A stretch of 10,046 nucleotides of DNA from an uncultured beta proteobacterium (GTDB lineage: Bacteria; Pseudomonadota; Gammaproteobacteria; Burkholderiales; Burkholderiaceae_C). The notes beneath the pieces were generated by a model, which worked only from the letters and a program-made list of their open reading frames with translations, was not told the origin of the DNA and did no database searches. The first letter of the stretch is position 1; each line of letters opens with the position of its first letter. This document shows, in pieces, positions 1 through 10,046 of this stretch. The DNA lies in assembly GCA_903927495.1 (NCBI GenBank), contig CAIYNH010000829.1, positions 1 through 10,046 of the forward strand, read 5' to 3'. Position numbers and translations under genes: made by a program.

Positions 1-1383
1 GGCCAAGTTCCATTGGGCCTTCGCGTCTTTTTGTTCAGCAGCTTTTTCTAGCCAATCCCGGGCCAACACCGGGTTTTTGGCAACCCGACTACCCTCGAGG
101 AAAATCACACCCAAAGCACTTTGCGCCAAAACATGGCCTTGATCTGCCGCGCGCTGATAAAAAGTAATCGCATCATTAATAGCCGAAGCCCCAGAGTTCG
201 ATTCATAACGCTGCCCCATCTGGTATTGCGCCTGCGCTGAGCCACCAGATGCGGCCATCTCCAGATAAGTCAAAGCCAAGTCATCACGCCCCTCGCCAAA
301 CATAGTTGCCAGCTTCATCATGACGTTCAAATCTCCAAGTTGGGCGGACTTCATGGCCCACTGCACACCGTCAGCCAGAGCAATGGATCGGGCCCGACCT
401 GCCATATAAAGGCGCCCCAACGCACAAACTGCCTCCTGAGCACCAGATATTGCTGCTTTTTCGTACCATTCAACGGCATCTTCGTCTTGCCCATTTTCTT
501 CAAGTAGGCGCGCCAGGGCCAATTTCCCCAGAGAAAAGTTACTTTGAGCGGAAAGTTGATACCAGCCTTGTGCTTGTGCCCGATCTTGTGCGACAGACCA
601 GCCGTGCTCGAACATCATCCCAATGCAATATTTGGCCTCTGCGTCACCACTTTCGGCAGCATCAACCCAGCGCTGGGCATCCTGCCTGCGCTCCGCAGTA
701 CCGGAATAGCGTCGAGCACGCCCCCCCGACCGATCCCGCCCCAAGCCACTCTCATCAAGCAATGACATGGCGACCAGTGCAGCAGCATGATTTTGTTTGG
801 CCGCTTTTCGGTACCAGATAAATGCTTGATCGGTATCCGCATGAACACCAATGCCATGTGCGTAGCGGTCCCCCAGAGCACATTGGGCGGCTGCCAAGCC
901 TTGCTCGGCCGCACGCAAACACCAGTCAAAAGCCTGTTGTTGCACATGGGAATCGGCCAAATCGCTGTAAACATCGGTGACCAATGCGAATTGTGCCTCA
1001 GCCACACCCTCGTGCGCCGCCTTTTGAAAGAGACTGCTGGCGGCAACCGGATGTGGCTTGGAGAAAAAACGCCCCAACCGATAGACAGCCTTGGGATGCC
1101 CTTGATCAACAGCCTTGATAAACCATTTGCAGGCTTCATGCTCGTCCTGCTCAACTCCAACACCATTGGCATAGCGTGTGGCCAACAGGTACTGTGCGGC
1201 CGCCAAACCACGTTCAGCTGACTGCCGAATCCAGTCAATCGCCTGCACAAAGTCCTGCTCAACGCCAATTCCGTTGGCATACATCAAACCCACCTCATAC
1301 TGCGCCTGTCGGATACCAAGGCGGGCATCTTTCAAGGCGGTGACGAAGTTGCGCTTGTCTTTTGCCAAATTTCTTGTCGCCAT
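1..1383 (-). CDS. Sel1-repeat (TPR-like) protein, C-terminus beyond the left edge
   Basis: The reading frame starts at ATG 1383 and stays open for 461 codons to the edge, so the C-terminus is missing. The start is supported by a GGAGG sequence about 10 nt upstream and an in-frame TGA just before that. From about residue 26 the protein is a chain of Sel1-like repeats, roughly 12 complete units of about 31-36 residues plus the start of another. Good examples are QAQYEVGLMYANGIGVEQD (27-45), AAQYLLATRYANGVGVEQD (62-80) and AAQCALGDRYAHGIGVHAD (165-183), each followed by a W/F..KAA..G helix. Such alpha-solenoids usually act as protein-interaction scaffolds. No signal peptide or membrane segment is visible at the N-terminus, so a cytoplasmic location is likely unless the unseen end differs. 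Unit 6 carries about 12 extra, basic residues (216-235) encoded around a run of seven G. The gene lies 36 bp after the efflux lipoprotein gene and is probably co-transcribed with it. The family call is firm; the specific role is unknown. Confidence 0.88.
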   Translation of the reverse strand, partial: MATRNLAKDKRNFVTALKDARLGIRQAQYEVGLMYANGIGVEQDFVQAIDWIRQSAERGLAAAQYLLATRYANGVGVEQDEHEACKWFIKAVDQGHPKAVYRLGRFFSKPHPVAASSLFQKAAHEGVAEAQFALVTDVYSDLADSHVQQQAFDWCLRAAEQGLAAAQCALGDRYAHGIGVHADTDQAFIWYRKAAKQNHAAALVAMSLLDESGLGRDRSGGRARRYSGTAERRQDAQRWVDAAESGDAEAKYCIGMMFEHGWSVAQDRAQAQGWYQLSAQSNFSLGKLALARLLEENGQDEDAVEWYEKAAISGAQEAVCALGRLYMAGRARSIALADGVQWAMKSAQLGDLNVMMKLATMFGEGRDDLALTYLEMAASGGSAQAQYQMGQRYESNSGASAINDAITFYQRAADQGHVLAQSALGVIFLEGSRVAKNPVLARDWLEKAAEQKDAKAQWNLA

Positions 1384-1419: not shown

Positions 1420-2820
1420 TCATGTGACGTTCTCGCGCCCGCCACCCAGCGCTTTGTACAACTGTACATTCGATTCAAGTTGCGCTCGCTTCACTTGGGC
1501 GGCCATTTGCTGCGCAGCAATCAATTCACGTTCAGCCTCCAGTACATCCAGATAAGCGCTGACCCCGGCGGCATGTCGACCTTGGGCAATTTCCAGGCGT
1601 CGGGTCTGCGCCTGGATGCTGACCACCGAGGCCGCCACTTGCCGTGCCAAAGACTTGCGTGCGGCCAATAAATCAGCAACCTCTCGAAACGCAACTTGAA
1701 TTGAACGTTCGTATTCCGCCACGGCGATCACTTTGCGCGCTTCTGCCAACTCCACGCCGGCAGCGGTACGGCCTCCGTCAAACAAGGGCATGCTGATGAT
1801 CGGTTGAAACGCCCAAGCCCCGCCGCTAAACAAACTCGTCAAACCCTGACTGGCCAGGCCCAAACTGGCGGTCAGCATCACTTTCGGCAAAAATGCTGCC
1901 CTGGCAGCGGCAATATTGGCGTGGGTCGCCAGCAAACGTTGCTCTGCCGCCATGACGTCGGGGCGCAACAGCAATACATCAGAAGGTAAACCAGAGGCGA
2001 GTCCAATGTCCAAACCCTGCTGATCAAGGCGCGCACCGGGCTTCAGTTCAAAGGGCACGTTTCCCAGCAAAAAATCAAGCCGATTGCGGGCAACTCTTAA
2101 CTGATATTCGTAACTGGCCAAGGAGCCCTGGGCAGACTCCAGCAGACTGCGGGCTTGCTGGTACTCAAAATCATTGGCAACACCACCCTGCAATCCTTTC
2201 TGAATTAACAGCATTGAATGCTCACGCAGCGCTACCGTAGACTGCTCTAGCGCCAACAGCTCCTTAAACTGTAGCGTCGTAAGGTACGATAGGGCCACAT
2301 CCGAAACCAATGACAAATAAACTGAGCGGCGTGACTCCTCCGATGCCAAATAGCTCAGACGCGCCGCTTCGGTCAAGTTGGCCACACGCCCCCAAAAGTC
2401 AATTTCATAAGAAGCGGATGACATCGACAAATCAAAGCGCTGACTGGTCAACGGTGCGCCAATGCCGCTCAGGTCTGATGAGGTCCGTGTCACATTGCCA
2501 GAACCCATGACATTAAATGTGGGTCCCAGGTCGGCCTGGGCAATGCCAAATTGCGCTCGCGCTTCCTGTACCCGACCTGCGGCAACGCGCAGGTCACGGT
2601 TATTTTCCAGCGCCAGTCCAATCAATGCTTTGAGTTGAGGATCAATGAAAAAGCTGCTCCAATGCGTTTTAAGCGCAACGACTTCAAGCTGGCCAGATGA
2701 TGTACCCCATTGATTGGGCACCGGCAAGTCGGGTCGCTTGAACTCATTGGTTTGAGCGCAACCCGCCAGACAGACGACAGCAATAAAAAATACAGACTTC
2801 CAGCCCACACCAAAACCCAT
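1420..2820 (-). CDS. RND-type efflux outer-membrane lipoprotein, NodT/OprM (TolC-like) family
   Basis: This 466-residue protein would form the trimeric outer-membrane channel of a tripartite efflux pump. The frame is open further upstream, but the start at 2820 is chosen because it gives a textbook lipoprotein signal: K8, a hydrophobic stretch, and lipobox L18-A19-G20-C21. Residue +2 is Ala, consistent with outer-membrane sorting. A longer form would overlap fliT and bury the lipobox. Family motifs follow in order: FKRPDLPVPNQW (27-38), VQEARAQFGIAQADLGP (84-100), YEIDFWGR (138-145), LLLRPDVMAAEQRLLATHAN (283-302, the start of the second OEP repeat), and a long helical region with ARAAFLPKVMLTASLG (306-321). 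Length and the two-repeat layout are normal for the family. Unusually, no membrane-fusion or inner-membrane RND gene adjoins it: fliT is upstream and the Sel1 gene downstream, so pump partners must be encoded elsewhere. The ribosome binding site is weak (only GGAA close to the ATG). The substrate cannot be deduced. Confidence 0.92.
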   Translation of the reverse strand: MGFGVGWKSVFFIAVVCLAGCAQTNEFKRPDLPVPNQWGTSSGQLEVVALKTHWSSFFIDPQLKALIGLALENNRDLRVAAGRVQEARAQFGIAQADLGPTFNVMGSGNVTRTSSDLSGIGAPLTSQRFDLSMSSASYEIDFWGRVANLTEAARLSYLASEESRRSVYLSLVSDVALSYLTTLQFKELLALEQSTVALREHSMLLIQKGLQGGVANDFEYQQARSLLESAQGSLASYEYQLRVARNRLDFLLGNVPFELKPGARLDQQGLDIGLASGLPSDVLLLRPDVMAAEQRLLATHANIAAARAAFLPKVMLTASLGLASQGLTSLFSGGAWAFQPIISMPLFDGGRTAAGVELAEARKVIAVAEYERSIQVAFREVADLLAARKSLARQVAASVVSIQAQTRRLEIAQGRHAAGVSAYLDVLEAERELIAAQQMAAQVKRAQLESNVQLYKALGGGRENVT

Positions 2821-2846
2821 TTCCAGACATGATCTAAGGCTCAGTC

Positions 2847-2874
2847 TAAATAACAAAAGGCGCTCTAAAGCGCC
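2847..2874 (-). terminator. Intrinsic terminator after fliT
   Basis: On the minus strand, about 26 nt past the fliT stop codon, a perfect 6-bp GC-rich stem GGCGCT/AGCGCC with loop TTAG (2859-2874) is followed directly by the U-rich tract TTTTGTTATTT. It should end the fliS-fliT transcript. It lies only about 27 nt before the efflux lipoprotein start codon, so that gene needs a promoter overlapping this region, or read-through. Confidence 0.75.
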
Positions 2875-2899
2875 AATAAGAGGTGAAAAACGAGCTTTT

Positions 2900-3196
2900 C
2901 TAGTGCAGCAAGTGCTGCCCTTCAAACTTGTGTTCAAAATGATCCAGCCACGGCTCAGCCAAGTAGCGAATTTGGGCATCATTGCACAGTATGCGTTGCA
3001 TGATGCGTGTTTTCTCTCTTCTTGAGCTGGCATCCAAGGCTTCTGTTGCTGCGCAATCGCGCAATTGCTCAATCAACACGGCGCACGCGCCCTCGTAACG
3101 CACCACGCCATCCCAGTCTTCGGCCCGGGCAGCCTCCAACATCATGGCGCTGCTGCTTTCGATGGCTTTGTAGTAATCAATCAAGATTTGTGACAT
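2900..3196 (-). CDS. fliT: Flagellar protein FliT (FliD export chaperone)
   Basis: This is a 98-residue, almost wholly helical, charged protein directly after fliS, the usual place of fliT. Family knowledge: FliT binds the FliD cap protein and escorts it to the flagellar export gate, and in enteric bacteria also restrains FlhDC. The sequence begins MSQILIDYYKAIESSSAMML and shows amphipathic helices (for example residues 24-47 and 57-84), with a hydrophilic C-terminus. Length fits the family (about 95-120). The gene starts 13 bp after the fliS stop, so the two are co-transcribed; its ribosome binding site is weak (AGAAAG), suggesting translational coupling to fliS. FliT sequences diverge strongly, so the assignment leans on size, helical character and gene order. 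Whether it recognises the enlarged FliD made here is an open point. Confidence 0.75.
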   Translation of the reverse strand: MSQILIDYYKAIESSSAMMLEAARAEDWDGVVRYEGACAVLIEQLRDCAATEALDASSRREKTRIMQRILCNDAQIRYLAEPWLDHFEHKFEGQHLLH

Positions 3197-3209: not shown

Positions 3210-3632
3210 CTATTGAACCGGCCGAAGGTACGCCGGCCCTTTGCCTTCGATCAGCTTCCAGCCGTTGCTCACCGGCTCAATCAAGCTGGCCACTTCATCC
3301 AGAGCCGCTACGTCATTGCGAGAGTTGGCAAGAACCAGACGAGTTACGCAATAGTCGTACAGGGCATTCAGATTGGCAGCGATTTCACCGCCTTTTTCCA
3401 GATCCAGCGGGGCCTTCAGACCTTCTTCAAGGATGCGAATGGCATTGCCTATTTGCTGGCACTTGGCGGGTACATTGCCAGCCTGCATAAACAATTTGGC
3501 ACTGCCAATGTTGCGCTGAAGCGCCTCAAACAGTAGACAAACCAGCTTGTGCGGGTCAGCCATGTCAACGCTGGACTCAACGCTAACCCTTTTGTAGGCA
3601 TGTGCTGCGCGGGAGTTGACGGAGGTGTACAT
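3210..3632 (-). CDS. fliS: Flagellar export chaperone FliS
   Basis: FliS holds newly made flagellin in the cytoplasm, covering its C-terminal D0 helices to prevent premature polymerisation and to deliver it to the type III export gate. The 140-residue protein shows family hallmarks: MYTSVNSRAAHAYKRVSVES at the N-terminus, ADPHKLVCLLFEALQRNI (25-42) and NLNALYDYCVTRLVLAN (87-103). The ATG at 3632 is preferred: an AAGGA ribosome binding site sits 7 nt before it. A TTG two codons upstream (3638) is in frame but only about 1 nt from that site. A sigma-28 promoter lies just upstream, and fliT follows 13 bp downstream. Both flagellins encoded in this window are its expected clients. Confidence 0.95.
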   Translation of the reverse strand: MYTSVNSRAAHAYKRVSVESSVDMADPHKLVCLLFEALQRNIGSAKLFMQAGNVPAKCQQIGNAIRILEEGLKAPLDLEKGGEIAANLNALYDYCVTRLVLANSRNDVAALDEVASLIEPVSNGWKLIEGKGPAYLRPVQ

Positions 3633-3659
3633 ACTCAATTCCTTATCTTGTTATTTTAA

Positions 3660-3796: not shown

Positions 3797-6700
3797 TTAG
3801 GCGGTTGACTTGTTCCAGGTGGTCACCTGTTGCGACACATAAGCGTTCAGCGCGGTCAGCGATGCCATCTGCGCATCCAGCGCGCTGTACTGTTTACGCA
3901 GACGTGCCTCAAAAGAAGCAGCCCGGTCATTGACCTTGGTTTGCGCGGCCGTGTTTCTACTTAGCACGCCCTGCAGCGCCGCTGCCTTATTGACCACCGA
4001 GCCACCCGTGGCCAAGACGCCGTGGGCCAAATCCCGGAACTTGACACCAAACCCATTGGTTAAGGCATTGCTGTTATTGGTGGTAAATAATTTCTGCAAC
4101 TCTGTACCGTTGTTGGCGGCTGTGCTGAGCTTGCTGGTGTTCAGTGTCAACGAGCCATCTTTTTGCAGTTCCAACCCCACATCCGACAGTCGCGCGTAGG
4201 TACTGCTACCTGTGCTGGTAGATCCCACCATACTGCGCAACACACTCTGCAAACCCAGCACTGCCGAATCGCCCTGAAACAACGAGGCAGTTTTGGTTGC
4301 CGAATCATATTTGGTCAAATCAGCCAAGGATGCGCTCAGGGCGTTGTAGGCAGTGACGAAGTCCTGCACGTTTTTAACTGCAGGTGTCACGTCTTCACTC
4401 ACAGACATTGTCAGTGGCGACTTAGTTTCGGTGCCAAGCCCATAGTTGGTGGTGGTTGTAGCAAGCAGATTGATGGTGACACCAGGTACGTTATTGGTCA
4501 GTGTATTGTTTTTTGATGTCACGGCCAGGCCATTGATGCGTGCCCTGGCATCTTGACCGTATTTTGCGGTAATGCCAGAACTGGCCATGCCAAAAGCGCT
4601 GGTTTGCGGATCGTAGGCAAAGCGCGACAACCCGGCGTTGTCGGTATTGATACCATCACTTGCGTCACTTGCCTGCACCCGAAAACCGGCCGAGGCACCA
4701 GTGTCTTTGGATGCCAACAGCAACCGATCGCTGGTGCCATCAAAGAATGTGGTGGCAACAACCCCCGCGTTGGCGGCGTTGATCTTCACCGCCAAAGTAG
4801 CCACCGTATCGGTTGCGGTTGCGGTTACGACCACATCCGTGCCCCCCGCCGAAGTGAATGTTGGACGTGCGCTGGTCATGCCGGTTGTGGCTGAAGTTAC
4901 CGCCGTGGTCGCGGTTGCAACCGCAGCTGTGGCAGTCACAACGGCTGCAGCTGCTGTGGCTTGTGCTGTAGTCGCTAGATTTTTAGTAGCAGTGGCGGCA
5001 GTCGCGGCAGTCGCGGCGGCGGCCTGAGCAGTCACAGCAGTGGCTGTGGCGGCCGCCGGAGCGACTGCAGCTAGGGCGGCAGTGGACTGATTGGATGTGG
5101 CAGTGGTGACCGCGTTAGCTGCCGTTAGGGCATCGGCTGCGGCGGTCACTTGGTTGCTATTGGCAGTGGCAAGGGCATTCGTGGCAAAGACGGCCGCTGA
5201 AGCGGCAGCCACTTGGTCGGTGGTGCGTGTACTGACCAGGCCATTGGCAATGGCGGCCAGGCCTGCCGCTGTATTTCTGGCTTCGGTGCGGGTAGTTACC
5301 AAATCGTTGGCTGTCAAAGCGGCGGCAGCAGCGGCAGTTTGATTTGCCACAGCCGTGGCGAGAATACCGGTAGCCGTGGCGACGTCATCGGTAGCTGTGG
5401 TCTTGGCCGTGGCTGCGCTGACTTTGGCTGTCAGTGCGGTCAGCGCTGTTGCAGCGGCGGCAGTCGCGGCATCAGCCGCCGTAATCGAAACACCTTTCAG
5501 TGCTGAAGCATTGCTTGCATCTGCGGTCGCAGTAATAGCGTCGGCTGCCGCTCGAGCTGTAGGGTCGGCGCTGACCAGCGCGCCATAGGCCAAGACCCGT
5601 GCTGAGCGAGCGCTGTTTTCTGTAGTCTGCAAAGCCGGGGTCTTATGGTCGTTAGCCACAATGGCATCCACCCACGCCGTATAAGCATTGGAATAGGTCG
5701 CCAGGGCATCGGCACCGGTGCCGGGATTAGAAATCGAATAATTAGTCGAATAACTGGCCAGTGCAGATTTCGCTGCAGCATCATCGGCCAAGGCTGCATC
5801 GGCTGGCACACTGACATCGTAAGCATTGCTCGCCGCAGTGGCCGATGCAGCATCGGCTGCAGTCGAAGCGGTAGTCGCCATCGCCAACACACTATTGGCA
5901 TTCGTGAGTGCAGTGTTGGCGCTGCTTAGCCCAGTATTCGCATTGGCCAAGGCGGTGTTGGCCGTGGTCAGTGCAGTATTCGGAGCTACCGCATCTGCAA
6001 TTGCTGTGGCAAGAGCAGCATCAGCCGCGGTTAAGTCTGCGTTAGGTGCCACAGCATCACTGGTGGCTGTTGCCAGCGCTGTATTGGCCGATGCCAAAGC
6101 TGCATTGGCATTCGTGGATGCCGTCGTGGCGCTCGTCACAGCGGTGTTGGCCGTGGCCAGGTTAGCGTCAGCTGTAGTCGATGCAGCAAGAGCACTGGTC
6201 AAAGTTGAGTTTGCCGTAGCCAACGCACTGTCGGTTAGCGCAGATGCAGCGGAGGTCGTCGTCAGTGTGGCGTTGGCACTTGTCAAGGCAGCGTCTGCAG
6301 TCGTCCATGCCGTGGTCGCCGTCGTCAGGTTGTCATTGGCCGTCGTCAAGGCAGTATTAGCGGTTGTCAGGTTGTTGTTGGCGGTAACCAGTGCGGCTTG
6401 GGCGACTGGCAGCGCGGCATCTGCTGTTGCTACGCCGGCATTGTCAGTGCTCGCGCTGCCCGAAACCCCGGCCCAGGAGCCGATGCTGAACGTGAGCGAC
6501 CCGGCCCCCACATAGGAGCCTGCGGTCAAAGGTGCCGAGGAAACTGACTGCTTTTGCGCCAGCGCATCAACATCGAGCGTGAAGGAGGTTGCCGCCGCTG
6601 CCGAGGTTACCGAAATGGTGGCGGCACTGCCCGATGATGAGGCCGAGCGAGCCACCCAGGCGCTGCTGCTCGCTATTGCAGTAGCTACATCGGACAAGGC

Positions 6701-6865
6701 CGAAAACTGGGATTGAATCGTACCAAACGCCGAAATTTGCGCCTGCACATTGGTGGCTTGAACGGCCAATGACTTGAGTGGTTGCTTTTCCAAAGCCACC
6801 ATCTGGGTCACGATGCTATTGACATCCAGACCGCTACCAATACCTACTGATGAAATCGTTGCCAT
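3797..6865 (-). CDS. fliD: Flagellar filament cap protein FliD (hook-associated protein 2) with a giant Ala/Thr-rich insertion
   Basis: FliD forms the oligomeric cap at the filament tip, under which exported flagellin folds. The start has a good AGGAG ribosome binding site 6 nt upstream. The N-terminal part is canonical: VGIGSGLDVNSIVTQMVALE (7-26), FTLDVDALAQKQSVSSAPL (95-113) and GSLTFSIGSW (122-131). The fold resumes at about 669 with TFTSAGGTDVVV, then a flagellin-hook IN-type motif (LAVKINAANAGVVATTF, 691-707; DRLLLASKDTG, 713-723). The C-terminal domain is complete (VQDFVTAYNAL 833-843; SDVGLELQKDGSLTLN 894-909; final helix YSALDAQMASLTALNAYVSQ 993-1012). Removing residues 141-668 leaves 494 residues, the normal FliD size. 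The extra 528 residues are low-complexity Ala/Thr/Ser/Asn sequence with two repeat arrays. They split the middle (D2-type) domain, which in known caps faces outward, so the block probably projects from the filament tip. No sigma-28 promoter is visible upstream; the flagellin A terminator lies in between. The reading frame is intact throughout, which argues against a pseudogene. Confidence 0.93.
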   Translation of the reverse strand: MATISSVGIGSGLDVNSIVTQMVALEKQPLKSLAVQATNVQAQISAFGTIQSQFSALSDVATAIASSSAWVARSASSSGSAATISVTSAAAATSFTLDVDALAQKQSVSSAPLTAGSYVGAGSLTFSIGSWAGVSGSASTDNAGVATADAALPVAQAALVTANNNLTTANTALTTANDNLTTATTAWTTADAALTSANATLTTTSAASALTDSALATANSTLTSALAASTTADANLATANTAVTSATTASTNANAALASANTALATATSDAVAPNADLTAADAALATAIADAVAPNTALTTANTALANANTGLSSANTALTNANSVLAMATTASTAADAASATAASNAYDVSVPADAALADDAAAKSALASYSTNYSISNPGTGADALATYSNAYTAWVDAIVANDHKTPALQTTENSARSARVLAYGALVSADPTARAAADAITATADASNASALKGVSITAADAATAAAATALTALTAKVSAATAKTTATDDVATATGILATAVANQTAAAAAALTANDLVTTRTEARNTAAGLAAIANGLVSTRTTDQVAAASAAVFATNALATANSNQVTAAADALTAANAVTTATSNQSTAALAAVAPAAATATAVTAQAAAATAATAATATKNLATTAQATAAAAVVTATAAVATATTAVTSATTGMTSARPTFTSAGGTDVVVTATATDTVATLAVKINAANAGVVATTFFDGTSDRLLLASKDTGASAGFRVQASDASDGINTDNAGLSRFAYDPQTSAFGMASSGITAKYGQDARARINGLAVTSKNNTLTNNVPGVTINLLATTTTNYGLGTETKSPLTMSVSEDVTPAVKNVQDFVTAYNALSASLADLTKYDSATKTASLFQGDSAVLGLQSVLRSMVGSTSTGSSTYARLSDVGLELQKDGSLTLNTSKLSTAANNGTELQKLFTTNNSNALTNGFGVKFRDLAHGVLATGGSVVNKAAALQGVLSRNTAAQTKVNDRAASFEARLRKQYSALDAQMASLTALNAYVSQQVTTWNKSTA
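4904..5407 (-). repeat. Second repeat array in fliD, 63-bp (21-residue) period
   Basis: This array encodes FliD residues 487-654 as eight consecutive 21-residue units without a gap. The clearest units begin at 508 (NQTAAAAAALTAND), 550 (DQVAAASAAVFATNALATAN), 571 (NQVTAAADALTAANAVTTAT) and 592 (NQSTAALAAVAP); those at 613 and 634 both begin AQA. A weaker unit (466-486) may precede them. Each unit equals three heptads. Composition is almost all Ala and Thr, with F560 the only aromatic residue and few charges. High helix propensity is likely. The register was found by eye; unit identity is low to moderate. Confidence 0.65.
5471..5818 (-). other. Non-repetitive central island of the FliD insertion
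   Basis: This stretch encodes FliD residues 350-465, which separate the two repeat arrays. Unlike its flanks it contains tyrosines (372, 376, 391, 395, 427), a tryptophan (398), prolines (354, 381, 410, 435) and more charged residues. This suggests a small folded domain or turn joining two helical arms. I recognise no family in it. Confidence 0.5.
5819..6406 (-). repeat. Array of 28 heptads (21-bp units) in fliD
   Basis: FliD residues 154-349 divide into 28 successive seven-residue units in unbroken register. The consensus is [T/S/N]-A-[N/D]-x-x-L-[T/A]; examples are TANTALT (168-174), TADAALT (189-195), SANTALA (259-265) and SANTALT (315-321). Ala at unit position 2 and Leu at position 6 give the 4-3 spacing of a coiled-coil core, with Thr, Ser and Asn outside. 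Copies are also similar in DNA: GCGGTGTTGGCCGTGG occurs at both 5952 and 6141 (plus strand), exactly 189 bp or nine units apart. This implies growth by tandem duplication followed by divergence. Confidence 0.8.
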
Positions 6866-7047: not shown

Positions 7048-8580
7048 TTAGCGCAGCAGCGCCAGCACACCTTGCGGCAACTGGTTGGCCTGCGCCACCA
7101 TGGCAGTACCGGCCTGTTGCAGAATCTGAGCGCGTGACAAATTAGCGGTTTCCGTGGCAAAGTCGGCATCTTGCACCCGTGAGCGTGATGCGCTCATGTT
7201 TTCGGAAGTGGTTTGCAAGCTCGAAATCGCCGTTTCAAAGCGCGATTGCAAAGCACCAAACTTCGCACGCTGACCAGACACAACACCAATCGCGGCATCC
7301 ACAGTTGACAGGGTGCGCGTGGCTGAATCGACAGATGACACATCAAGCCCTTCAACCTTTTGAAGTTGACTGGATGAATTTCCAGTGAAATAGCCGGCAC
7401 CACCAGCCGCAGTAGCCGCAACAATGCTAAACGCTTTATCAGAGTCCAACAATACAACTCCAGTGGTGTACGCTGAATTAGCATCAGCCGCCACACCAGC
7501 AGCACCTTTATCACCAGCGATACCTGCCACGGTCCCCACCGTGATCACGCTCGCTGCCGCACTCTTGTTCCCAATTAGGATGTCTTCCCCAGAAGCATTG
7601 GTCAATGAGATGCCGTCGCTGGTGGAATTTAATTTTGCCGTCACGCCGGTCACAGAAGACTTGTCGTTAATCGCAGTAATTGCTCCTGACAAGCCTTCAG
7701 CATTATTTAGCGCACCCATGGTAAAACTGACAGTGGCGGCAGTGGTGTTGGTTGATGTAATGTCAAGGGTGTAGCTCGCATTACCAACCAAAGCTGTCAT
7801 ATCAATTGATGTCCGCGCACTGGCTGTAACACCGGTACTCGCCGACTTAGCATTTATAGCAATAGCGGCTTTTTTGGCACTATCTCCTGCATTCAGGCCG
7901 ATAACAGAACTACCGGATGACCCGTTGATCGCAAAGGTTGCGTCTGCTGCAATCTGGTTGGAAGCCTTGGCAACCGTGAAAGAAACATTCGATCCCGCAG
8001 TGCCTGTCCCCAATGCCAAATCGCCGGTATTGTCGGTCGCTGTTGCGGCCTTCGATCCAATGCGGTTGTTTCCATAACTAGCCACATTAAAGTTACCCGT
8101 TGTGGCTGAAATGGTCTGATTGGCGTTGGCACCCACTTGGAAATCAGCCGATGTCATGCTTCCGTCTAATATTAATTGCCCATTAAATTGCGTCGTTTTT
8201 GCAATCCTGTCCAATTCAGATGTGAGTTGACCGACTTCCTGGTTCAAGGCGTTACGATCGCTTGCGGAATTTGTCGCATTTGCGGATTGCACAGCCAGTT
8301 CACGAATACGCTGCAAGATGGTTGAGGATGCACCTAACGCACCTTCTGCCGTTTGCGATAACGAAATGCCGTCATTGGCGTTGCGGGCCGCCTGATTCAA
8401 GCCGCGAATTTGCGACGTGAAACGCTCCGAAATACTCAGGCCAGCGGCATCATCCTTGGCGCTGTTGATGCGTAAACCCGATGACAAACGTTGAATGGAT
8501 TGACTCAAGGAGGCCTGACTGGTGGTCAGGTTTCTTTGTGCAGTCATCGAGTTGATATTGCTATTGATGGTGGCAGTCAT
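7048..8580 (-). CDS. fliC: Flagellin A (complete filament subunit)
   Basis: This 510-residue flagellin is exported through the flagellar type III apparatus and polymerises into the filament. Residues 1-140 are the conserved N-terminal D0/D1 helices: [20 protein letters not shown] (38-57), [20 protein letters not shown] (60-79) and QRIRELAVQ (90-98). The last matches the D1 segment seen by mammalian TLR5 in enterobacterial flagellins. The C-terminal D1/D0 helices (about 425-510) end [14 protein letters not shown]. The middle (170-415) is the variable, surface-exposed part and holds two flagellin-IN-like segments (about 213-252 and 294-338). It is rich in Ala, Ser and Thr and has no Cys. The start has an AGGAG site 8 nt upstream. 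The leader carries a sigma-28 promoter and two hairpins, and a strong terminator follows. It is a paralog of the divergent flagellin B. The symbol is generic; fliC versus flaA/flaB naming cannot be settled here. Confidence 0.97.
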
Positions 8581-9020: not shown

Positions 9021-10046
9021 ATGGCCTCAACCATTAACACCAATATCCAGTCGCTGACTGCGCAACGAAACCTTAGCATGTCGCAAGCATCTTTGGCCAC
9101 TTCAATGCAGCGCCTTTCCTCTGGCATGCGCATCAACAGCGCTAAAGACGACGCTGCCGGCCTGGCCATCAGCGACCGCATGACGTCACAAGTGCGCGGC
9201 TTGAATCAAGCGGCACGCAATGCCAATGACGGCATCTCGCTGTCGCAGGTTGCAGAAGGTGCCCTTGGTAGCGCCACCTCAACCTTACAGCGCATTCGTG
9301 AACTGGCCGTGCAGTCAGCCAACGCCACCAATTCGGCCAGTGACCGCGCCGCGCTGAATCAGGAAGTGAGCCAGTTAACGGCTGAGTTGGATCGGATTGC
9401 CAAAACCGCCCAATTCAACGGACAAAATATTTTGGATGGCAGCTTTACCTCTGCAGCCTTTCAGGTGGGTGCCAACGCCCATCAAACCATCATTGCTACC
9501 ACCGCAAATTTCAGCACCAACAAGTATGGCAATAACCGTATTGGCTCCGAAGTTGCGACCACCACTGGTGCTACGGGTGATTTGGTCGGAACGGGTGTCA
9601 TCGAAGGCACCAACCGATCAGTCGCGGTAGTCGGCACGACCAGCGCAATTATTGGAGACACGGTCACCATCAATGGCACGTCAGGAAGTTCGCCTGTGAC
9701 AATCACGGCTGGTGAAAGCGCCAAAGTGGTAGCTTCCAATATCAACGCAAAATCCAGCACCACCGGCGTTCTGGCGACAGCTCGTACGCATGTCGATGCC
9801 GACACATTTACCGCGACACCAGGGAGCTACGCCCTGTCCGTCACATCCAACAACTCAACACCTGTGACAGTTGCATTTAACGTAGGCGCGCTGAACAATG
9901 CCGACGGTTTGGCAGCAGCAATTACCGCGTTCAATGACAAGGCATCTCTGACAGGCGTAAGTGCCAAAATGAACACTGCCGGCACCGGAATCACGCTCAC
10001 CAATGAAACCGGGGCTGACATCCAGATTACCAACAACACAAGTTCA
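9021..10046 (+). CDS. Flagellin B, C-terminus beyond the right edge
   Basis: The frame is open for 342 codons from ATG 9021 to the window end, with AAGGAG 7 nt upstream of the start. The N-terminal D0/D1 region is closely similar to flagellin [61 protein letters not shown] and [11 protein letters not shown]. The variable region also matches A in outline, with [16 protein letters not shown] and [18 protein letters not shown] corresponding to the two flagellin-IN-like segments of A. The part seen ends within the second of these, so the C-terminal D1/D0 helices should lie beyond the edge. It is a paralog of flagellin A in divergent orientation, with many substitutions, so it is an established second flagellin rather than a recent copy. 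Its promoter is not obvious. It would share the FliS chaperone and the FliD cap. Confidence 0.95.

Follow-up and report, generated by a model that had tools for sequence, protein, structure and literature searches.

The tip of the bacterial flagellum carries a small machine, the FliD cap. What, then, is a block of more than 500 residues doing in the head of one such protein? The question is raised by fliD on contig CAIYNH010000829.1 of an uncultured beta proteobacterium, which we analysed as one window of 10,046 bases (the whole contig); the source genome lies in 1015 contigs and is 75.6% complete, and for this reason the exact number of heptads discussed below is not assured. As we describe here, the block is very probably an antiparallel α-helical coiled-coil hairpin, the matching of its arms being read from sequence and the fold being predicted.

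An intact FliD with a large insert in a head turn

The fliD open reading frame (ORF) contains no internal stop over all 1022 amino acids (aa) and, as an earlier note on this DNA had proposed, encodes an intact FliD with a giant in-frame insert in its head region. Both Pfam halves scored above their cut-offs, FliD_N at residues 11–106 (67.5 bits; cut-off 24.8) and FliD_C at residues 770–1003 (135 bits; cut-off 25.4), and residues 132–668 split them. The protein also shows the D2–D3 head fold of solved FliDs and has the fliC, fliS, and fliT neighbourhood typical of FliD. The NCBIfam FliD equivalog cut-off was not reached (best NF005955, 149.5 bits versus 387), a failure that concerns FliD subtype and not FliD identity, as these models fit full-length FliDs of other lineages. 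The block lies between GSLTFSIGSW (ending at residue 131) and TFTSAGG (starting at residue 669). The earlier note had delimited the same block as residues 141–668 (~528 residues), but it starts nine residues earlier and comprises 537 aa. Its removal leaves a core of 485 residues, which is the normal FliD length that had been claimed for the remainder, as the FliD frames in a listing that covered 200 family genomes mostly measure 450–540 aa.

At the insert site, the same-genus proteins L052, L058, L060, and L061, with cores 63–70% identical to the query, have a turn of five residues; the site spans 3–14 residues in other FliDs and up to 38 in more distant genus members. Alignment with solved FliDs placed the site between two strands, just past a GTL.. 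stretch. Head 2 of Pseudomonas aeruginosa FliD (here D3) is given as residues 104–230 (PMC5072837), and by our mapping, which counts residues from the P. aeruginosa limits, the insert would fall in this domain.

Heptad periodicity in both arms

The Ala/Thr/Ser/Asn composition noted earlier stands (Ala 36%, Thr 20%, Ser 8%, Asn 7%), and charged residues are scarce (6 Lys, 7 Arg, 27 Asp, 2 Glu), but the insert is strongly heptad-periodic and has a recognisable tip segment, which a description as low-complexity sequence misses. Compared to shuffles, residue identity gave z values of 7.7, 6.4, 11.1, 4.4, 4.4, and 8.8 at lags of 7, 14, 21, 28, 35, and 42, respectively, and z of 1.9 or less at all other lags within 1–44. 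In the N-terminal arm, residues 145–345 form 29 heptads in a single register, with large apolar residues in 76% at one position, Ala in 86% three positions later, and Asn or Asp in 69% at the next; three heptad positions that would be exposed are Thr or Ser in 50–66%. In the C-terminal arm (residues 463–662), Ala occupies one heptad position in 90%. Periodicity is thus found in both arms, clearly in the first and as an Ala column in the second. These unlike heptads, a Leu column in one arm and an Ala column in the other, would fit the pairing of dissimilar helices. The C-terminal arm also resembles the Alacoil in sequence, with a single Ala recurring at a fixed place in the heptad. GC content at third codon positions is 0.54 in the insert (4862–6472) versus 0.62 and 0.62 in the flanking FliD core.

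Arm lengths are matched across relatives

In an antiparallel hairpin, the arms before and after the tip must be equal in length apart from a constant. Among 67 proteins with a single tip, the window's included, N arms of 20–252 residues and C arms of ~0–211 residues were correlated with r = 0.995, the two arms of a protein differing by a median of 36. Independent contrasts (66) computed on a tree restricted to core columns gave r 0.990 and a slope of 0.97, with the same sign in 33 of 35 sizeable contrasts. The value was 0.9897 on 62 contrasts when the motif Trp served as a second anchor and 0.83 after removal of the 20 largest contrasts; the short class alone gave 0.755 and the long class 0.984. 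When indel units were allocated randomly between the arms, none of 5000 simulations came as close, at each of three unit sizes. C-arm length modulo 7 was 3 or 4 in 61 of the 67 proteins; N-arm length modulo 7 had no clear peak in the same set, perhaps because of a variable stretch between arm and tip. The query arms measure 252 and 206 residues, those of P0021 244 and 209, and those of P0025 242 and 211. Such matching is a hallmark of antiparallel coiled-coil hairpins.

These analyses started from 134 sequences, of which 130 were anchored; the four dropped correspond in number to the proteins lacking an N-core match (P0030, P0041, P0057, and P0071). A correlation based on the best-scoring tip (r 0.796 over 73 rows, falling to 0.224 for the 24 rows whose inserts are ≥250 aa long) was discarded as spoiled by multi-tip proteins. 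First and last tips were taken instead, separating nine multi-tip from 67 single-tip rows; with multi-tip rows kept, r was 0.974.

The tip segment

Alignment of 38 FliDs revealed the recognisable segment inside the insert, and its profile matched 76 of the 130 anchored sequences. Across 16 selected segments, eight residues never vary (Y, Y, W, N, D, E, S, K). Nine proteins (P0001, P0018, P0028, P0051, P0054, P0060, P0061, P0070, and P0072), and also L095, have multiple tips; the nine contain two to five tandem matches, some partial and mostly 75–85 residues apart. Multi-tip arms are still roughly matched, the worst case being P0028 (170/226). No tip above 5 bits was detected in 43 of the 120 listed database proteins introduced below, many of which have Ala-poorer or short Ala-rich inserts. 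A protein database search with residues 372–464 gave seven matches, all with FliD domains; it covered only proteins of 562–1788 aa and missed most of the tip-bearing FliDs already known, and its reach is accordingly short. Wherever the tip was found, in that size range of the database and in genus, family, and class genome samples, the host protein was a FliD.

Predicted structure and structural likenesses

AlphaFold predicts helices almost throughout the insert, and the predicted length of the arm is ~31 nm, nearly twice the height of the cap; the Salmonella cap is reported to measure ~13 by 17 nm (PMC12221982). The first helix of the descending arm and the last part of the tip profile overlap. 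A long arm, as the earlier note had suggested, is therefore likely, although the evidence points to a periodic antiparallel hairpin with a tip in place of a low-complexity block. Its helices would pack side by side in opposed directions, a feature drawn from the prediction and from structural matches. Predicted helix breaks at residues 205–211 (window 6233–6253) and 598–607 (5045–5074), the second containing Pro603, lie at matching heights on the two arms and could form a hinge.

For a shorter homologue, each of the 27 Foldseek matches at E ≤0.001 was a FliD or cap-complex entry, and any other protein stood at E 1.5 or higher. No solved FliD was seen to match the insert in the structure and sequence comparisons made. 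For the query model, the best non-FliD solved match was PrgA (6z9l), obtained from VIA-align only, which takes a second look at Foldseek's own candidates and says nothing on chains not listed there. PrgA is a surface protein of Gram-positive (enterococcal) cells, not a flagellar cap, and probably shares architecture only; the SEC10/PgrA surface exclusion domain TIGR04320 stayed below its cut-off (18.8 bits versus 70; E 0.00083; residues 149–240 only). The antiparallel coiled-coil hairpins of SMC/Rad50 and chemoreceptors belong, unlike the FliD insert, to cytoplasmic machines, and the scans made found no sequence relation between them and the insert. Campylobacter jejuni FliD likewise combines a FliD core with an additional domain, D4 (PMC7316729), but the query insert occupies the head turn and is predicted to be a long coiled-coil hairpin of variable arm length. 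FliDs with additional domains are thus known, and in the open-access literature, to which our search extended and from which subscription papers are absent, we found no paper on such a FliD insert and no length-matched coiled-coil hairpin in this turn.

Relatives and distribution

Searching the protein database with the C core found 180 proteins, of which the best 120 were listed; the restriction to 562–1788 aa favours insert-bearing FliDs, and insert-free ones are missing. Anchoring on both sides succeeded in 116 of the 120 and revealed inserts of 82–718 aa, of several kinds, at this site. The query architecture is not unique: tip-bearing inserts span 99–718 aa (73 proteins), P0021, P0025, P0028, P0041, P0054, and P0072 also exceed 1000 aa, and tip-bearing metagenomic FliDs reach 1194 aa. 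Nor was it already common among the genomes sampled, as the earlier note had allowed that it might be. The tip (profile A4) occurred in 3 of 89 genus genomes, 58 of which have a FliD_N match, and in 1 of 399 family and 1 of 369 class genomes sampled, in both cases the window's own; the family sample listed only four other genus members, leaving the tip-bearing G238 and G249 outside it. At 1028 codons stop to stop, the window's FliD frame is the longest in two listings: among the frames listed from 200 family genomes, 144 of which have FliD_N, the others reach 714, and among those listed from the 89 genus genomes 686. Among 39 loci from named records, seven carry the tip insert: by record title, L099 and L125 are Rhodoferax, L098 is Curvibacter, and L094, L095, L096, and L115 are Burkholderiales or betaproteobacterial metagenome-assembled genomes (MAGs). 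The sole one not titled as a MAG, L125, is a short form from Rhodoferax sp. U2-2l, apparently a cultured strain.

On a core tree of 163 FliDs, the rows nearest to the query are P0017 (with L067 and L099; 121-aa insert) and P0001 and P0018 (368-aa multi-tip inserts), and insert length has thus changed greatly inside a small group. For the N arm, P0017 and the query lie 212 residues apart, and for the C arm 203, through what may have been either growth or shortening. Eighteen single-tip proteins have long arms (N 162–252, C 122–211 residues), and 17 of these are relatives that share 65–72% core identity with the query. Under a crude Ala cut-off, the 163 rows were labelled tip (83), turn (34), beta (33), and other Ala-rich (13), and the tip label requires at least nine gains or losses; the 'beta' class is impure, as L105, with its 906-aa coiled-coil-like insert, is missing from the Ala-rich rows and was thereby counted as 'beta'.

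Different inserts occupy the same turn elsewhere. L062, L065, L068, L071, L072, and L085 have Ala-poorer inserts of ~100–114 aa that we label beta-type from their sequences. L105:1-4014, from the MAG Rhodoferax sp. OV413 isolate ME-21oct19-171, has a 906-aa coiled-coil-like insert with no tip match in the profile search, a weaker 7-residue periodicity (0.21 versus 0.13 expected), and, by eye, more charged residues; it is possibly a second, independent coiled-coil insert. By eye, the L065 and L068 insert resembles a tandem copy of the adjacent FliD head segment, and P0041 (1209 aa) resembles L105. Judged from these sequences, the head site accepts insertions readily.

The fliD locus

On the minus strand, the gene order is flagellin, fliD, fliS, and fliT (Table 1). 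A second flagellin gene at 9021–10046 (plus strand), divergent from that at 7048–8580 (minus strand), is truncated by the contig end, and both flagellins contain a Flagellin_IN motif. On the other side, a Sel1-repeat protein (1–1383, minus strand), also truncated at the contig end, adjoins an outer membrane efflux protein (1420–3072, minus strand) whose listed start overlaps fliT; its true start is probably further inside the listed ORF.

Table 1. Coordinates of fliD, its parts, and neighbouring flagellar genes in the window.
Feature	Positions	Strand	Basis
fliD, filament cap protein (HAP2), 1022 aa, intact	3797..6865	-	ORF; Pfam FliD_N and FliD_C
FliD N-terminal core, residues 1–131	6473..6865	-	Pfam; anchoring to homologues; AlphaFold
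Insert, residues 132–668 (537 aa)	4862..6472	-	5-residue turn in closest insert-free same-genus relatives examined
Ascending (N) arm, residues 138–348	5822..6454	-	Heptad register; predicted AlphaFold helices 138–204 and 212–348
Tip segment, residues 384–462 (~79 residues; Y..Y..W..NDH motif)	5480..5716	-	Alignment and profile searches
Descending (C) arm, residues 453–666	4868..5509	-	Heptad Ala column; predicted AlphaFold helices 453–597 and 608–666
FliD C-terminal core, residues 669–1022 plus stop	3797..4861	-	Pfam; anchoring to homologues
fliS, downstream of fliD	3210..3638	-	PF02561, E 6.7e-32
fliT-like, presumed FliD export chaperone	2900..3196	-	PF05400, E 1.4e-18
Flagellin, 510 aa, upstream of fliD	7048..8580	-	PF00669, PF00700

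Discussion

How might such a hairpin work? In the model that we propose, a short head turn would have been replaced by a long antiparallel coiled-coil hairpin, in which the chain ascends an arm of ~30 heptads, crosses a small bundle of helices at the tip, and returns along the matched arm. If the protein assembles like known caps, in five or six copies, the same number of stiff ~31 nm arms would stand on the filament end and keep their tip bundles well away from the cap plate. The arms would serve as spacers that present this bundle to surfaces, particles, or other cells, for first contact or for adhesion; their length would change through gain or loss of 21-bp repeat units, and the need of the two helices to pair would keep them matched. 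Taken as a whole, a FliD cap with hairpin arms as tip-presenting spacers is our best explanation, and we hold it with moderate confidence. Adhesion or surface contact is the likeliest use of the hairpin, a role that we assign tentatively and by analogy.

Studies of other FliDs bear on this model. In P. aeruginosa, the head domains are reported to be replaceable, a headless version still made filaments, and some tags replacing the head reduced motility (PMC8533109); such replaceability may explain why the insert site can carry this cargo. In one P. aeruginosa strain, adhesion to mucin apparently proceeds through FliD (PMC8306008), and D4 of C. jejuni FliD was postulated by its authors to relate to adherence, with heparin binding (PMC7316729). 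It is because of these analogies that we see the arms as possibly holding the tip out for surface contact.

Several observations weigh against the model. The hydropathy spectrum of the C arm peaks at 5.25 residues, not 7, and the Ala column therefore carries the heptad assignment of that arm by itself. Conservation of the tip is 0.48, barely above that of the arms (0.45) and below that of the core (0.68; 151 pairs), and the invariant tip aromatics fit the core of a bundle. Low tip conservation is also what might be expected if a small helical insert had one or very few origins and was lengthened by 21-bp slippage in a near-neutral manner, with folding keeping the arms matched and with no specific ligand. 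The replaceable P. aeruginosa head, the at least nine gains or losses of the tip label, and the acceptance at one site of beta-type inserts and of the different 906-aa insert all agree with such a history. Nevertheless, it accounts less well for the retention of long arms in 18 single-tip proteins, nearly all of them close in core sequence, and for eight invariant residues in the chosen tip segments; by reasoning, not from data, equipping each flagellum with a 1000-aa subunit in several copies would also be costly. We therefore regard near-neutral growth as rather unlikely.

A disordered, possibly O-glycosylated Ala/Thr/Ser brush, which the earlier note had entertained, would suit the scarcity of charge and the Thr and Ser at presumably exposed N-arm positions, but it requires none of the heptad register, the matched arms, the 7-residue steps of the C arm, or the helix prediction. 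As heptads and matched arms imply a folded rod, the brush is disfavoured and strikes us as very improbable, although sugars may decorate exposed Thr or Ser of such a rod. In a fragmented metagenome-derived genome, 21-bp repeats are error-prone for assemblers, and the arm difference in the query is 46 versus the median of 36. Other database homologues share the site, arms, and tip, however, with the arms of P0021 and P0025 close to those of the query, and the record title of the short form from Rhodoferax sp. U2-2l does not name a MAG. The insert architecture is thus largely cleared of being an assembly artefact, an explanation to which we give almost no weight.

If the spacer model is true, folded arms nearly twice as long as the cap is high would alter our view of which structure reaches a surface first as a swimming cell runs into it, and would show how far the FliD head can be re-used. 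Going further, with more doubt than confidence, we suggest that some Rhodoferax-like bacteria might bear a crown of stiff coiled-coil antennae (~31 nm here) on the growing flagellar end, with a contact bundle ahead of the filament, a length evolvable through the number of heptads in two co-evolving arms, and a tip bundle multiplied two- to five-fold in some relatives. The matched arms, which at a single site range from absent to ~30 heptads, provide an exceptionally clean natural gradation for testing the effects of arm length on attachment, drag, export, and filament growth, and the short form in Rhodoferax sp. U2-2l would make the insert testable.
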